Below, one piece after another: positions 4,028 to 48,505 of a stretch of 64,000 nt of DNA. Each line of letters opens with the position of its first letter. Positions within the stretch are counted from its first letter, which is position 1. This DNA is from Methanolobus profundi. GTDB lineage: Archaea > Halobacteriota > Methanosarcinia > Methanosarcinales > Methanosarcinaceae. The notes beneath the pieces were generated by a model. The model had not been told where the DNA came from. It saw nothing but the letters and a program-made list of their open reading frames with translations, and searched no databases. The stretch spans positions 1 to 64,000 of the forward strand of contig NZ_FOUJ01000005.1 of the NCBI RefSeq assembly GCF_900114835.1, read 5' to 3'. Position numbers and translations under genes: made by a program.

Positions 4028-5494
4028 ATGTCACAATTCGATATAATCCATAAGGATGCAGCAGGGCGTATCGGTAAGCTGACCACTCCCCACGGAGTGG
4101 TAGAGACCCCTACTGTAATGCCTGTTATCAATCCAAATCTCCAGACCATAAAACCCTCTGAGATGAGGGATTTTGGTGCTGAGATACTTATCACTAATTC
4201 ATACATCATCTACCGTAAAGATGAACTAAGGGAAAAGGCACTGAAAGACGGTTTGCATGCATTGCTCGATTTTGACGGTCCCATAATGACCGATTCCGGT
4301 TCGTTCCAGTTATCAGTCTATGGTGAGGTAGAGGTTACCAACGAGATGATCATCGATTTCCAGCAAAAGATCGGTACAGATATCGGTGTTCCTCTGGATA
4401 TCCCTACACATCCTGATGTCTCCTATGAGAAAGCAAAGGAGGATATGGATATCACTATAGGCCGTCTGAAAGCTGCAAGGGAACTTGTAAAAGATGGCAT
4501 GCTTCTGGCAGGTCCTGTACAGGGTGCAACTTACAAAGACCTCCGTGAGGAATGTGCCCGTGAGCTTTCAGATGTTGGTTTTGATGTCTATCCATTCGGT
4601 GCTGTTGTTCCATTAATGGAATCTTATCGCTATGCAGACCTTGTTGATGTTATTGCATCTGCAAAGAAAGGTCTTGACCCGGTAGCACCAGTACATCTCT
4701 TCGGTGCAGGACACCCAATGATGTTCGCACTTGCAGTTGCTCTGGGATGTGATCTCTTTGACTCTGCAGCCTATGCACTTTATGCAAAGGACAGGCGCTA
4801 CATTACTTCAAGGGGTACTTATCATGTGGATAAACTGAAGTATCTACCATGTTCCTGTCCTGTATGTATAGCTCACACAGCAGAAGAACTGAAAAAGGCA
4901 CATAATTGTACCGATCTTCTTGCAAGGCACAACCTCTATGTGACATTTGAGGAGATGCGTGAGGTAAAGCAGGCTATATGGGAAGGTAATCTTCTGGAGC
5001 TTGTGGAACAGCGTTGCCGTTCCCATCCAAGAATGCTGGAAGCACTGAAACAGATGTACACATATTCCGAATGGCTGGAAGAGTGTGACCCTTCATCCAA
5101 GTCCACCTTATTCTACTGCGGACCTGAATCCTCAAAGAGACCTGAAGTACTGCGCTTCAATAAACAGCTTGAAAGACTAACGATCGAAGGTTCTGTGTTA
5201 ATAAGAGCATACCCTACGAAAATAGACAAAGAGTATGACAATGTCCTGATGTTCAAGCCGCCATTTGGTTCCTATCCGCAGGAACTTGCAGAGGTCTATC
5301 CATTCAATGCAGAGGTTGTAAGGACCCCTGACTATGAATCACTTGAGACCGCTTATCAGAACACCATCAAGCTTGTGGAGCTAAACCCTGATGCAACCTA
5401 TACTTTCCTTATGAAAGACACGTTCGAGCATCCTCTGGTTGAGAAACTCGCAGCGATGGATAACTTTACAGTTGTTCCACCAAAGAGCGACTGA
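4028..5494 (+). CDS. tgtA: tRNA-guanine(15) transglycosylase (archaeosine pathway)
   Basis: The enzyme swaps guanine-15 in the D-loop of archaeal tRNAs for preQ0, the first tRNA-level step to archaeosine. The TIM-barrel catalytic domain fills about residues 1-330 and shows the TGT signature MTDSGSFQ with a catalytic Asp, and the zinc site PCSCPVC followed by a distal His. Residues about 350-488 resemble the archaeal C1 domain. The protein stops at 488 residues, so the C-terminal PUA domain of longer archaeal enzymes is absent and is probably supplied by a separate ArcS-like protein. It stands alone, divergent from trkH. Confidence 0.93.
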   Translation: MSQFDIIHKDAAGRIGKLTTPHGVVETPTVMPVINPNLQTIKPSEMRDFGAEILITNSYIIYRKDELREKALKDGLHALLDFDGPIMTDSGSFQLSVYGEVEVTNEMIIDFQQKIGTDIGVPLDIPTHPDVSYEKAKEDMDITIGRLKAARELVKDGMLLAGPVQGATYKDLREECARELSDVGFDVYPFGAVVPLMESYRYADLVDVIASAKKGLDPVAPVHLFGAGHPMMFALAVALGCDLFDSAAYALYAKDRRYITSRGTYHVDKLKYLPCSCPVCIAHTAEELKKAHNCTDLLARHNLYVTFEEMREVKQAIWEGNLLELVEQRCRSHPRMLEALKQMYTYSEWLEECDPSSKSTLFYCGPESSKRPEVLRFNKQLERLTIEGSVLIRAYPTKIDKEYDNVLMFKPPFGSYPQELAEVYPFNAEVVRTPDYESLETAYQNTIKLVELNPDATYTFLMKDTFEHPLVEKLAAMDNFTVVPPKSD

Positions 5495-5609: not shown

Positions 5610-6872
5610 ATGGGAGTTATTTTTACTGATGAGCTATTGGAAAATATAGATAAATATCAATTGATCGATATACGGTCTGTTGATGCTTATAATGGATGGA
5701 AGGAGAATGGGGAGGCAAAAGGCGGGCACATAAAAGGTGCCAGATTGTTGCCTTACAAGTGGTTACATTATATTGACTGGATCGAGATAGTAAGGAACAA
5801 AAATATTCTTCCTGATGATCCTTTGGTGATCTATGGTTATGACCGGGCCAGGGCAGAGGAAGTTGCCAGGCAATTTGAGAGGGCTGGCTATCCTGATGTC
5901 TCTGTTCTCAACTCTTTTTCAGAATGGGTGGAAAAAGATTATCCAATGGATGATCTTGAAAGATACAGGCAGCTTGTTTCAGCAGACTGGCTGAACCAGT
6001 TGATCACCACGAACAATGCTCCTGAATATGACAATGACAGATTTGTCCTATGTCATGCTCACTACAGGAATCCCTCCGATTATGAAGAAGGCCATATTCC
6101 AGGAGCAATATCTATGGATACCAATTCTCTTGAATCCACAGAAACATGGAACCGTCGGTCTCCTGAGGAACTGAAGGAAACTCTGGAAAAAGCAGGTATA
6201 ACTCATGATTCTACTGTGATCGTTTACGGGAGATTCTCCTTTCCGAACAATGACGACCCGTTTCCAGGAAGCAGTGCAGGTCATCTGGGGGCAATGAGAT
6301 GTGCTTTCATAATGCTCTATGCTGGTGTAAAGGATGTTCGTATCCTTAACGGAGGTCTTCAGTCCTGGCTTGATTCGGGCTATGATATTACCAAAGTTCC
6401 GGTAAGCAACTTTCGTGTCTCTTTTGGTGTTGATATCCCTCAAAATCCGGGGATAGCTGTTGATCTGGAAGGTGCAAAAGCTATTCTGGCAGCTCCTGAT
6501 AAGAATCTGGTGAGTGTCAGAAGCTGGAGGGAATATATCGGGGAGGTAAGCGGTTATAATTATATTGAGAAAAAAGGCCGTATACCAGGCTCGGTCTTTG
6601 GTGACTGTGGATCAGATGCGTATCACATGGAGAACTACAGGAATCTTGACCACACCATGCGTGAATATCATGAGGTCATGGAAAGCTGGGAGAAGATAGG
6701 CATTACTCCTGATACTCACAATGCCTTCTACTGCGGGACCGGTTGGAGAGGCAGCGAGGCTTTCTTCAACGCATGGCTTATGGGGTGGGACAAGGCAGCT
6801 GTCTATGATGGTGGCTGGTTCGAATGGAGTAATAATGACCTTCCATTTGAGACCGGGGTGCCTGAGCAATGA
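5610..6872 (+). CDS. eanB: Three-domain rhodanese sulfurtransferase, candidate ergothioneine synthase EanB
   Basis: The 420 residues hold three rhodanese-like domains at about 1-115, 125-260 and 275-415. Only the third has a candidate catalytic cysteine, Cys375 in YCGTGWRGSE; the equivalent sites in the first two are YGYDRA and YGRFSF. In anaerobic ergothioneine synthesis EanB moves sulfane sulfur onto C2 of hercynine. I recall Cys412, Tyr353 and Thr414 as key residues of the Chlorobium enzyme. Here Tyr316, Cys375 and Thr377 have the same spacing (59 and 2), which supports the call strongly. It overlaps the next gene, a histidine methyltransferase, by 4 bases. The fallback name is multidomain thiosulfate sulfurtransferase. 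Confidence 0.78.
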   Translation: MGVIFTDELLENIDKYQLIDIRSVDAYNGWKENGEAKGGHIKGARLLPYKWLHYIDWIEIVRNKNILPDDPLVIYGYDRARAEEVARQFERAGYPDVSVLNSFSEWVEKDYPMDDLERYRQLVSADWLNQLITTNNAPEYDNDRFVLCHAHYRNPSDYEEGHIPGAISMDTNSLESTETWNRRSPEELKETLEKAGITHDSTVIVYGRFSFPNNDDPFPGSSAGHLGAMRCAFIMLYAGVKDVRILNGGLQSWLDSGYDITKVPVSNFRVSFGVDIPQNPGIAVDLEGAKAILAAPDKNLVSVRSWREYIGEVSGYNYIEKKGRIPGSVFGDCGSDAYHMENYRNLDHTMREYHEVMESWEKIGITPDTHNAFYCGTGWRGSEAFFNAWLMGWDKAAVYDGGWFEWSNNDLPFETGVPEQ

Positions 6873-7831
6873 TAATTGAAGATCTCATGCCTCGTACCGG
6901 GGAAAGTTCCGTAAAGGATAAACTGTTGGCCGGATTGAGGTCCGATCCAAAAACGATCCCTTCCGTGTTCTTCTATGACCATCGTGGTTCGGAGCTGTTC
7001 GAGCAGATAACACAGTTGGAGGAATACTACCCTCCCATGATAGAGATACCACTTCTTGCTTCGACCGCCCGGAAATTGGAACAGGACCTTAAGAACTGCG
7101 ATATTGTGGAGCTTGGGAGTGGCGACTGCTCAAAGATATCCGTCTTCCTTGATGAAGTACCAGAAGATGTCCGTGCAACAATGACCTATTATCCGGTTGA
7201 TGTATGCAAAGAGGCCATTGAGAAGTCTGCATGTAATCTCCATGAAAAATATCCTGAAATAAAGATACATGGGATCACAGCTGACTTCCTTGAGCATATG
7301 GAGAAGATTCCCGGAAACAGAAAAAGGTTCTTCTGTTTCTTTGGCAGTACAATTGGAAATCTCAGTGATGCAAGGTCAATGGAGTTCATGGAAAACCTTG
7401 GGGAGGTCATGAATGTAAATGACCGGCTGATCCTTGGGATGGATATGGTCAAGGATATCAGTGTCATTGAAAAGGCATATAATGATGACCAGGGTGTCAC
7501 GGCTGAATTCAACAGGAATATACTGAACGTCACTAACGACCATCTTGGAACCGATATCAACCCTGCTGATTTTGAACATGTTGCTTTTTTCAATAGGGAA
7601 TATTCACGGATAGAGATGCATCTGAGAGCAAAGAGGGACCTGGAGATCACGATACCAGAGTTGGATGAACATATCATCATTGAAAAAGGTGAGATGATCC
7701 ATACTGAGAATTCCCATAAATATTCCGTTGATGATATCGTGAAACTGGCAGATGCCGGTGGACTTGATGTGGAGGAGATCTTCACTGATGAGAAAAAATG
7801 GTTCTCACTTGTGGAAATGGTGAAAAGATGA
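6869..7831 (+). CDS. eanA: L-histidine N-alpha-methyltransferase (EgtD/EanA family)
   Basis: This SAM-dependent enzyme of the EgtD family should trimethylate histidine to hercynine. Signatures in order are SVFFYDHRGSELFEQI near the N-terminus, the SAM motif ELGSGD, YYPVDV, and the conserved FFGSTIGNL, whose Asn binds the histidine carboxylate in EgtD. Near the C-terminus TENSHKYS matches the substrate-pocket segment. The 320 residues fit stand-alone EgtD, with no fused sulfoxide synthase. It overlaps both neighbours by 4 bases. No EgtB-type oxygen-dependent enzyme is nearby, which fits the anaerobic route through the upstream rhodanese. Confidence 0.88.
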   Translation: MIIEDLMPRTGESSVKDKLLAGLRSDPKTIPSVFFYDHRGSELFEQITQLEEYYPPMIEIPLLASTARKLEQDLKNCDIVELGSGDCSKISVFLDEVPEDVRATMTYYPVDVCKEAIEKSACNLHEKYPEIKIHGITADFLEHMEKIPGNRKRFFCFFGSTIGNLSDARSMEFMENLGEVMNVNDRLILGMDMVKDISVIEKAYNDDQGVTAEFNRNILNVTNDHLGTDINPADFEHVAFFNREYSRIEMHLRAKRDLEITIPELDEHIIIEKGEMIHTENSHKYSVDDIVKLADAGGLDVEEIFTDEKKWFSLVEMVKR

Positions 7832-9009
7832 TGGATGTCAAAAAGGATTTTCCTATACTTGAAAAAGAAGTATATGGAAAAAGACTGGTCTATCTTGATA
7901 ACGCAGCAACGAGCCAGAAACCTAACTGCGTGATCGATGCTATTTCTGAGTACTACAGGTCCGATAATAGTAATATCCACAGGGGAGTTCATTACCTGAG
8001 CGAGGTCTCAAGTGAAAAGTATGAGCATGCAAGGAAAAAGGTCAGTGAGTTCATCGGTGCCAGTGATCCTGCAGAGGTGGCATTCACTGCAGGTACGACA
8101 GATTCCATAAATCAGGTGGCACGGTCCCTGGAGCCATCTTTGAGGGGAAATGAGGTCATTGTAACGGGTGTGGAACATCATTCAAATATCGTTCCATGGC
8201 AGATGGCAGGAGCGACATTAAAGGTGATCCCTATGGATGACGATCTCAATGTGCTTATAGATTCCATTGAAATATCGGACAGGACGAAATTGGTAGCTAT
8301 CAGCCATGCTTCCAATGTACTTGGTTCGGTGAATGATATCAAAGCCATCTGCAGCATTGCAAAGGAACATGATGTTCCTGTTCTTGTGGATGCAGCCCAG
8401 TCAATACAGCATATGCCGATCGATGTAAGGGATATAGGTTGTGATCTCCTTGCCTTCTCCGGTCATAAGATGTATGCATCCACTGGTGTAGGTGTGCTTT
8501 ATACAGGTGAGCGTTTCAGAGACCTGGTGCCAGCAAGAGGTGGTGGTGGTATGGTCGATAAAGTGACCATTGAAAGAACGACATACCTGGATCCTCCTTT
8601 ACGATATGAAGCAGGAACTCCTGATATTGCAGGAGCTATAAGCATTGGTGCAGCCATCGATTATATGCAGAGAATAGGGATGGACAATATCAAAAGGCAT
8701 GAGAATGAGGTCTATTCATATGCAAGGAAAAGGCTTCTGGAAATGGATGATGTAGCCGTTTACGGAAACACGAATGAGATGTGCGGTGCTATTTCGTTCA
8801 ACCTTGATGGGATCCATCATTACGATGCAGGCCTGATAATGGATAAGATGGGAATCGCTGTAAGGACAGGTCATCACTGCGCTCAGCCACTGATGAGGAT
8901 ATTGGGTGTTGAAGGCACTGTGAGGGCAAGTTTTGCAATGTACAATACAAAGGAAGATGCCGACATGCTTATTGAAGGCATAGAAAAAGTGAGGATGATG
9001 TATTCATGA
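7828..9009 (+). CDS. sufS: Cysteine desulfurase, SufS type
   Basis: This PLP enzyme takes sulfur from cysteine as an enzyme-bound persulfide. Evidence is the SufS-type N-terminus (DFPILEKEVYGKRLVYLDNAATSQKP), the PLP lysine Lys214 in SGHKMYAS, and the catalytic Cys351 in RTGHHCAQPL; 393 residues is the group II length. I take the start as the ATG at 7828, which overlaps the eanA stop as ATGA; an in-frame reading from 7798 lies inside eanA and is less likely. It is translationally coupled to eanA and to sufE. The context suggests that it feeds sulfur to the ergothioneine rhodanese more than to Fe-S assembly, since no sufBC lies here. Some methanogens do without a desulfurase. Confidence 0.93.
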   Translation: MMDVKKDFPILEKEVYGKRLVYLDNAATSQKPNCVIDAISEYYRSDNSNIHRGVHYLSEVSSEKYEHARKKVSEFIGASDPAEVAFTAGTTDSINQVARSLEPSLRGNEVIVTGVEHHSNIVPWQMAGATLKVIPMDDDLNVLIDSIEISDRTKLVAISHASNVLGSVNDIKAICSIAKEHDVPVLVDAAQSIQHMPIDVRDIGCDLLAFSGHKMYASTGVGVLYTGERFRDLVPARGGGGMVDKVTIERTTYLDPPLRYEAGTPDIAGAISIGAAIDYMQRIGMDNIKRHENEVYSYARKRLLEMDDVAVYGNTNEMCGAISFNLDGIHHYDAGLIMDKMGIAVRTGHHCAQPLMRILGVEGTVRASFAMYNTKEDADMLIEGIEKVRMMYS

Positions 9010-9413
9010 GCGACCCCATTCAGGATGAGATCATAAAAGAGTTCGACGGGCTTGAGTGGTTCGATAAGTATGAACTTCTGATCAATTCTGCCAGAAAGGC
9101 CGGGAGCATGGCTGAAGAGTTCAGGACCGAAGAGAACGCGATAAGTGGTTGCCAGTCAAAAGTATGGGTCAGAAGCTACACTAAAAACGGCAGACTGCTC
9201 TTCGAGTTCGACAGTGATGCAATGATAACCAAAGGCATCACATATCTTGTACTCAGAGTGCTCAACGACCGCTATCCTCAGGAGATACTTGACACTGATC
9301 TGTATTTCATTGAAGAGGTCGGTCTGAAGTCGAACTTATCCCCTGCAAGGGCCAATGGCCTGGCCTCTATTATTAAGAGGATAAGGGAGATCGCGGAGGG
9401 GGAAGCTTCTTAG
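9006..9413 (+). CDS. sufE: SufE-like sulfur acceptor
   Basis: This 135-residue protein is a SufE/CsdE-family partner that accepts the persulfide from SufS and passes it on. The hallmark is Cys49 in the loop SGCQSKVWV, followed by the usual GLKSNLSPARANGL segment. It overlaps sufS by 4 bases and ends the four-gene operon; A/T-rich DNA follows. SufE is, to my knowledge, uncommon in archaea, so the sufS-sufE pair may have come together with the ean genes from an anaerobic bacterium (inference). Confidence 0.92.
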   Translation: MSDPIQDEIIKEFDGLEWFDKYELLINSARKAGSMAEEFRTEENAISGCQSKVWVRSYTKNGRLLFEFDSDAMITKGITYLVLRVLNDRYPQEILDTDLYFIEEVGLKSNLSPARANGLASIIKRIREIAEGEAS

Positions 9414-9548
9414 AGTACTGCATATGTAAAAATTATCTTCAATGATAATTCTCTTTTTAAAAACCGAAACCGGGTTGATTTTAGCGCACAACCCTAATAC
9501 TAATATACAATACCGGGGATTAGAACCTATAATCTATTGGTGATATAC

Positions 9549-10493
9549 TTGGTTTCCACTTCAGGTTCAAAAACGAGAAATCCCTATCTGGAAATGTTGA
9601 GGCCGGAGATAGCGGATATGGATCTTGCTCTCCCTGCAGCAAGTGCTTTATTGGCCTCTTACCTCACGATAGGGGTACTGCCAGATCCTATACTGTTCAT
9701 AATAGCCGTTATCGGAGGCTATGCAGCGATCACAAGTTCCTATGTGTTCAATGACTGCTGTGATGTCGATATAGACACGATCAACCTGCCGGACCGTCCA
9801 CTTGTATCTAACAAGCTCAGCAGGGATCAGGCACTGAAGTACGCAGGTCTACTTTTCCTTATAGCCAGTGCGGCAGCCCTTTACCTAAATCCTGAATCAT
9901 TCGTTGTTCTGGTCATCGCTGTAGTAACTATCAGTGTATACTCAAAGCTCGCAAAGAGAATGACCTTCCTTAGTTTTGTACCTGTGGGAATTGCTTACGG
10001 ACTTGTACCAATTGGGATCTGGCTGGCTTTCGACCCTGCCGGAATTCTCAAAGAACCTTCCTACGGTTCTATCCTTCCGCTTCCTGCGATCTTCCTCGGT
10101 CTTATGATGTGTTTCACTGATTGGGGATTCACACTATCTGGTGTGGCAAGGGATGTAGAAGGCGACAGAGCAAGAGGTGCACCGACATTTCCGGTAACAT
10201 TCGGTATTCCGGCAACATCAAAATTTGTGACCTTCATGTGGGCAGTAGGAATTATAGCTTCCATAGCCATTGGGATCACTGCAAAGATAGGTCCTATATA
10301 CTTCGCAGGTGCACTGCTTGCAGGCGGCTGGATGCTTATCCAATCATTTGATTTTATAAAGAACCCAACAGAACAACGTGGAGGACAACTGTTCCTTCAG
10401 GGCTCCAGATATAGGGGCCTGATGTTCGGTTCTCTCATACTTGACGTAATACTTTGCATACTCGTACCGGCATATTCCGGTATCTTATGGTAA
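9549..10493 (+). CDS. UbiA-family prenyltransferase, substrate unknown
   Basis: An integral membrane enzyme of about nine hydrophobic segments that should transfer a polyprenyl chain to a hydroxyl or aromatic acceptor. The two Asp-rich metal-diphosphate motifs are visible: NDCCDVDID (about residue 75) and DVEGD (about residue 200). The first motif differs from the NDYFDIEID typical of the lipid enzyme DGGGP synthase, so I do not assign archaeal lipid synthesis. I prefer the TTG at 9549, which follows a GGTG six bases before it; a TTG at 9537 is the alternative and would add four residues. It is the first gene of an operon with a reductase and a radical SAM protein. Confidence 0.85.
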   Translation: MVSTSGSKTRNPYLEMLRPEIADMDLALPAASALLASYLTIGVLPDPILFIIAVIGGYAAITSSYVFNDCCDVDIDTINLPDRPLVSNKLSRDQALKYAGLLFLIASAAALYLNPESFVVLVIAVVTISVYSKLAKRMTFLSFVPVGIAYGLVPIGIWLAFDPAGILKEPSYGSILPLPAIFLGLMMCFTDWGFTLSGVARDVEGDRARGAPTFPVTFGIPATSKFVTFMWAVGIIASIAIGITAKIGPIYFAGALLAGGWMLIQSFDFIKNPTEQRGGQLFLQGSRYRGLMFGSLILDVILCILVPAYSGILW

Positions 10494-48232: not shown

Positions 48233-48307
48233 TAGCGGGGGATAGATTCGAACTATCGGTCTACGGGTTATGAGCCCGTCGGGATCTCCTGGCTACCCCA
48301 CCCCGCT
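48233..48307 (-). tRNA. Initiator tRNA-Met (CAT), copy 1
   Basis: On the minus strand the acceptor stem begins AGCGGGG and ends CCCCGCT, giving the A1-U72 pair typical of archaeal initiator tRNA, with discriminator A. The anticodon loop CTCATAA carries CAT, and the anticodon stem has the three G-C pairs (GGG/CCC) of an initiator. The T arm reads ATAGTTCGAATCTAT. No CCA is encoded. It is identical to copy 2 at 48431. Confidence 0.96.
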
Positions 48308-48430: not shown

Positions 48431-48505
48431 TAGCGGGGGATAGATTCGAACTATCGGTCTACGGGTTATGAGCCCGTCGGGATCTCCTGGCTACCCCACC
48501 CCGCT
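48431..48505 (-). tRNA. Initiator tRNA-Met (CAT), copy 2
   Basis: The 75 bases are identical to the copy at 48233-48307, with the A1-U72 pair, GGG/CCC anticodon stem and CAT anticodon. The two copies are 198 bases apart in the same direction. The next bases share TTAGAA just beyond the 3' end of each, so a slightly longer unit was probably duplicated. Confidence 0.96.

Follow-up and report, generated by a model that had tools for sequence, protein, structure and literature searches.

A putative self-contained operon for oxygen-independent ergothioneine synthesis, with its own SufS/SufE sulfur supply, in Methanolobus profundi

The methanogen Methanolobus profundi carries a four-gene operon, eanB-eanA-sufS-sufE, at positions 5610-9413 of the window analysed here, a 64,000-nucleotide stretch of DNA (assembly GCF_900114835.1, contig NZ_FOUJ01000005.1, positions 1 to 64,000 of the forward strand). 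The four-gene unit very probably makes ergothioneine without oxygen. The operon is likely to be a self-contained, oxygen-independent pathway that is fed by histidine, S-adenosylmethionine (SAM), and cysteine and moves horizontally, with SufS/SufE as the physiological persulfide donor of EanB. This reading draws on the identities and catalytic residues of the encoded proteins, on the co-occurrence and synteny of the genes, on the clades that they form, and on empty insertion sites.

In the proposed pathway, EanA would convert histidine and three SAM to hercynine, and SufS would convert cysteine to alanine and an enzyme persulfide. SufE would accept the persulfide and deliver its sulfur to EanB, either directly or through released polysulfide. 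In EanB, a persulfide on the buried Cys375 would then replace the C2 hydrogen of hercynine, generating ergothioneine. The predicted net reaction turns histidine, three SAM, and cysteine into ergothioneine, alanine, and three S-adenosylhomocysteine and would require no oxidant. The enzyme activities, the transfer from SufE to EanB, and the product in cells are all predictions of this scheme.

All four genes run in one direction in the list of open reading frames (ORFs). The eanB gene (5610-6872, plus strand) encodes a putative 420-residue ergothioneine synthase with three rhodanese domains (Pfam Rhodanese x3, PDB 6ktv match), and eanA (6869-7831, plus strand) encodes a 320-residue EgtD-family histidine N-alpha-trimethyltransferase (TIGR03438, Pfam Methyltransf_33). 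The third gene, sufS (7828-9009, plus strand), encodes a pyridoxal phosphate-dependent cysteine desulfurase of the SufS type (TIGR01979, Pfam Aminotran_5); its length of 393 residues is counted from the ATG at 7828, and the mechanical ORF list starts it at 7798. The last gene, sufE (9006-9413, plus strand), encodes a sulfur acceptor/carrier of 135 residues (PF02657). As the original prediction had described, each gene overlaps the next by four bases on the same strand. All three junctions (6869-6872, 7828-7831, and 9006-9009, plus strand) read ATGA. Such a stop/start overlap is a common sign of translational coupling. Chance adjacency is ruled out by the phylum-wide profile and because about 22 related genomes, as well as distant phyla, preserve the gene order, the strand, and the tight spacing. 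The identities and the pathway that had been assigned to the four genes are upheld by the catalytic residues, by the phylogenetic profile, and by trees and synteny across a wide range of genomes.

EanB of the window is closest to the crystallised EanB of Chlorobium limicola (PDB 6ktv; 579 bits, E 3.5e-173), with 60% identity across 415 residues. The next-best family is YnjE, at 276 bits, and a generic rhodanese identity (YnjE/SseA) was ruled out on such much lower scores. By alignment, Cys375, Tyr316, Thr377, and Arg380 of the window protein correspond to Cys412, Tyr353, Thr414, and Arg417 of the C. limicola enzyme, where mutants have shown Cys412, Tyr353, and Thr414 to be essential (PMC9103826). 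In C. limicola numbering, E345, Y353, C412, G413, T414, G415, W416, and R417 are invariant in 82 of 82 aligned EanBs, and Y411 is kept in 81. With these catalytic residues and full-length similarity, the protein is assigned as an ergothioneine synthase and is predicted to turn hercynine and sulfane sulfur into ergothioneine.

The EanA protein passes the EgtD equivalog model TIGR03438 (346.6 bits; cut-off 290.9) and matches the EgtD structure 4uy6 at 196 bits. It keeps nine of nine checked EgtD positions (Y39, F47, Y56, G161, N166, Y206, M252, E282, and S284), which presumably represent the substrate site. EgtB, the sulfoxide synthase of the aerobic pathway, is not among the four operon genes, though no EgtB search of the genome was made. 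The checked EgtD positions bear on a rival that is very improbable, namely that the same chemistry yields a different thiolated histidine or imidazole betaine. Sequence gives no certain substrate range, and a 2020 review has the product unmeasured in any archaeon (PMC7278568). Against this, M252 and E282, which set EgtD specificity, are intact, as is the remaining checked substrate site, and the active-site residues of EanB all match the crystallised ergothioneine synthase.

Operon SufS passes TIGR01979 (511.4 bits; cut-off 475.1), and alignment with SufS structures 5vpr, 5j8q, and 5xt5 places its persulfide-forming cysteine in an RTGHHC loop. SufE passes PF02657 (131.4 bits; cut-off 27), and its Cys49, in ISGCQSK, aligns with Cys51 of E. 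coli SufE, in IQGCQSQ (structure 1mzg). It falls below the E. coli SufE equivalog model PRK09296 (83.6 bits vs 160). On these scores, the protein is assigned to the SufE family as a carrier other than the E. coli SUF equivalog. SufS is a free protein of 393 residues in which Pfam finds Aminotran_5-type domains only, and it lacks the metallopterin architecture of MES, the metallopterin-dependent ergothioneine synthase.

The four genes are tightly linked in their distribution, as surveyed among 99 other genomes of the order and 393 genomes of the phylum; such a co-occurrence survey had been suggested with the original prediction. Within the order, 21 genomes carry full-length EanB, and exactly these 21 carry full-length EanA; operon-type SufS and SufE occur in those 21 and in one more whose eanB is split over contig ends. 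Operon-type SufS stands at 72-85% identity, versus at most about 46-50% for SufS paralogs. Weak partial matches aside, 75 of the 99 genomes have none of eanB, eanA, operon-type sufS, and sufE. The cassette is best read as gained or lost as one block in Methanosarcinaceae. In the phylum, EanB is found in 23 genomes, all 23 of which also carry SufE. SufE itself is found in 25. Of these, 24 have an intact copy that immediately follows eanA and operon sufS, and one has a C-terminal fragment.

The fragment belongs to G052, a relative (family f1, genus g3) that lacks eanB. This genome was considered as a case of SufE without EanB and was dropped, as all that it has of SufE is a C-terminal piece close to the start of a contig (L181, G052:C7:1-6000, about 293-385). 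The piece is possibly the remnant of a decayed operon.

These counts weigh on a second rival, in which ergothioneine is made, SufS/SufE just happen to lie in the operon and supply sulfur generally, for iron-sulfur (Fe-S) clusters or tRNA thiolation, and EanB draws on free polysulfide, the donor proposed for C. limicola. SufE usually serves SufB in bacteria. Polysulfide feeds EanB directly in vitro, the active site of EanB is buried (PMC9103826), and a survey that counted SufE in 10 of 132 Methanosarcinales treated it as an Fe-S factor (PMC8351635). However, intact SufE is missing from all sampled relatives without EanB, and Fe-S assembly in these archaea is therefore independent of SufE. The distribution ties SufE to ergothioneine rather than to an Fe-S role, suggesting that the SufE of these archaea, counted so far as an Fe-S factor (PMC8351635), serves ergothioneine instead.

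The host also has desulfurases elsewhere. Its genome contains at least three further desulfurase-like genes with contexts of their own. One is of the IscS type and adjoins an IscU/NifU_N protein, and two are SufS-like. A SufS-like desulfurase adjoins FdhD (L162:3577-5562), a position that suggests a role in formate dehydrogenase maturation, and the third further gene has no evident partner nearby. Set beside these, operon SufS/SufE are probably dedicated to the ergothioneine pathway, and an IscS-IscU pair and two further SufS-like genes speak against a general supply from the operon.

The trees carry the same linkage beyond the methanogens. When 84,980 species genomes were scanned, 419 relatives were returned, of which the best 80, those nearest the query, were kept; most bacterial loci among them are metagenome-assembled genomes (MAGs). 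In a maximum-likelihood tree built from 82 EanBs, loci with SufE or SufS are set apart by one branch (support 97/94) from loci that have room for these genes but lack them. Linkage state requires one change in 98% of EanB bootstrap trees, with bootstrap not fully settled, versus 22 changes expected from shuffled labels. Among loci with enough downstream sequence, SufE is adjacent in 31 of 31 in the linked clade, the window included, and in 0 of 33 in the unlinked clade. Operon SufE forms one clade (support 100; the comparison SufE sequences outside operons are mostly from Bacteroidota). Operon SufS forms one clade as well (support 97), which falls within bacterial SufS at a wide distance from the paralogs of archaea. 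The pairwise distances in EanB track those in SufE (correlation r 0.72-0.80) more closely than those in SufS (0.41-0.60). Clade structure and distance correlation fit a cassette that was assembled once in bacteria and then moved into Methanosarcinaceae and Thermoplasmata. Horizontal transfer between phyla is the best reading of how the SufE-linked cassette spread, judging from these trees.

Also against a general supply role, SufE linkage tracks one deep EanB clade across phyla, and SufE remains beside EanB even where sufS or eanA is not adjacent. Given the distribution of SufE, the other host desulfurases, and the clade linkage, housekeeping Fe-S genes were judged an unlikely identity for SufS/SufE, and the rival as a whole is improbable. 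The built-in donor proposed in the original prediction, with SufS and SufE loading cysteine sulfur onto EanB, agrees with profile, synteny, and trees, the transfer from SufE to EanB being the inferred part.

A more specific proposal carries about even odds. It holds that there are two kinds of EanB, and that in one of them, which a mobile four-gene cassette would have carried through archaea and bacteria, SufE is a dedicated persulfide chaperone, the physiological donor, which passes sulfur directly into the buried active site. Its client would be a small-molecule thione synthase and not an Fe-S scaffold. Two residues, Asn299 and Asn371, the latter four residues ahead of the catalytic cysteine, do not vary within the SufE-linked clade of EanB but are not fixed in the other clade, and Cys148 and Cys231 are enriched in the linked clade. 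All four may be partner-specific residues.

The full order eanB-eanA-sufS-sufE also occurs in Thermoplasmata and six bacterial phyla: Aminicenantes, Bacillota (Syntrophomonadaceae), Planctomycetota, Omnitrophota, Elusimicrobiota, and Fibrobacterota. Shorter forms, eanB-sufS-sufE or eanB-sufE, are found in Calditrichota, Ignavibacteriota, and Gemmatimonadota, among others. Operon SufE is the sole SufE in the tested SufE-linked genomes, with one exception. In 10 of 11 tested genomes with unlinked EanB (mostly Bacteroidota), SufE is present elsewhere, often beside SufS, and this housekeeping SufE might serve EanB there.

Several points weigh against a self-contained pathway with SufS/SufE as the donor. 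According to the 2020 review, no ergothioneine had been detected in archaea (PMC7278568). Work on C. limicola EanB has argued that a 13 A tunnel leads to the catalytic cysteine and puts it out of reach of IscS, and that polysulfide is the direct donor (PMC9103826); SufE might therefore act solely by releasing polysulfide. Seven SufE-linked loci have no adjacent sufS, and nine have no adjacent eanA. For seven of these nine, EanA lies elsewhere in the genome, and its loss at eanB-sufE loci was dismissed on that ground. In the other two, EanA was not found anywhere in the genome, possibly because the MAGs are incomplete.

The original prediction had counted genomes in which the rhodanese never travels with the methyltransferase as evidence against itself. 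The two are neighbours in most loci and are fused in two Bacteroidales MAGs, as one ORF of about 750 residues (L092:6922-9168 and L097:7965-10226). These MAGs lie apart on a quick EanB tree, and the fusion thus possibly arose twice. Fusion of EanB with SufE was also considered as evidence of linkage; no convincing case was found, and the MAGs L043 and L067, which have long open frames, were left uncounted. In Salinimicrobium (Flavobacteriia), EanB occurs without an adjacent EanA (L061, L068, L076, L079, L085, L087, L100, and L103); in L068, the one genome tested, EanA lies elsewhere. If Salinimicrobium is aerobic, EanB is not limited to anaerobes.

The closest known system is the EanA/EanB pair of C. 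limicola (Clim_1148/Clim_1149), which has the same two enzymes and catalytic residues in adjacent genes and works without oxygen. It differs in that its EanB falls in the SufE-free clade, a placement made by EanB sequence, whereas the window operon includes sufS and sufE. A search of the class around genome G115 returned no Chlorobium-like EanB. In methanogens, the pair was noted in 2020 in Methanococcoides vulcani, a member of the same archaeal family (Rawat and Maupin-Furlow, PMC7278568). As far as the available portion of that account goes, it names the pair alone and does not mention sufS/sufE, their distribution, or the clade split.

MES of Caldithrix abyssi is a cysteine-fed anaerobic route of another type (PMC9516567). 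Like the window operon, it takes its sulfur from cysteine and couples a desulfurase to the sulfurisation of hercynine. Unlike the operon, in which a rhodanese would work without a metallopterin and SufS and SufE are proteins of their own, MES is a molybdopterin module fused to a desulfurase. Bacterial SUF systems share the protein families and conserved cysteines of SufS-SufE; they differ from the window, where the operon has no SufBCD and SufS and SufE form clades of their own that travel with EanB.

The natural donor of EanB is disputed. Cysteine and E. coli IscS can feed EanB in vitro (PMC9103826; PMC11767532), and the IscS result was later reinterpreted, with free polysulfide preferred as the donor (PMC9103826). 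The SufS/SufE module, which is widely conserved and goes with a single deep clade of EanB, offers a specific candidate donor to test. No published link between EanB and SufS/SufE was found in a search that did not cover the original descriptions of EanB (Burn 2017, Leisinger 2019), which might mention neighbours. The SufS/SufE sulfur module of the EanB cassette appears unreported. Movement between phyla of a cassette with its own sulfur supply adds weight to the view that ergothioneine is important to strict anaerobes. The four genes are also a possible compact cassette for ergothioneine production.

The operon is flanked by genes outside the pathway. To its left lies an archaeal tRNA-guanine transglycosylase gene (TGT; 4028-5494, plus strand, PF01702), and to its right a UbiA-family prenyltransferase gene (9537-10493, plus strand, PF01040). 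In seven operon-less Methanolobus genomes, TGT and UbiA are adjacent, about 150-200 bases apart, and this adjacency therefore marks an empty site for the window operon. Four operon-bearing Methanolobus genomes (G003, G026, G016, and G011; L256, L260, L262, and L264) also have TGT and UbiA adjacent and carry the operon elsewhere. The block thus has more than one chromosomal position within the genus. Judging from these positions, the eanBA-sufSE block has either changed place within Methanolobus or entered the genus repeatedly.

Elsewhere in the window, two tRNA genes stand in tandem on the minus strand (48233-48307 and 48431-48505), with identical covariance-model scores.

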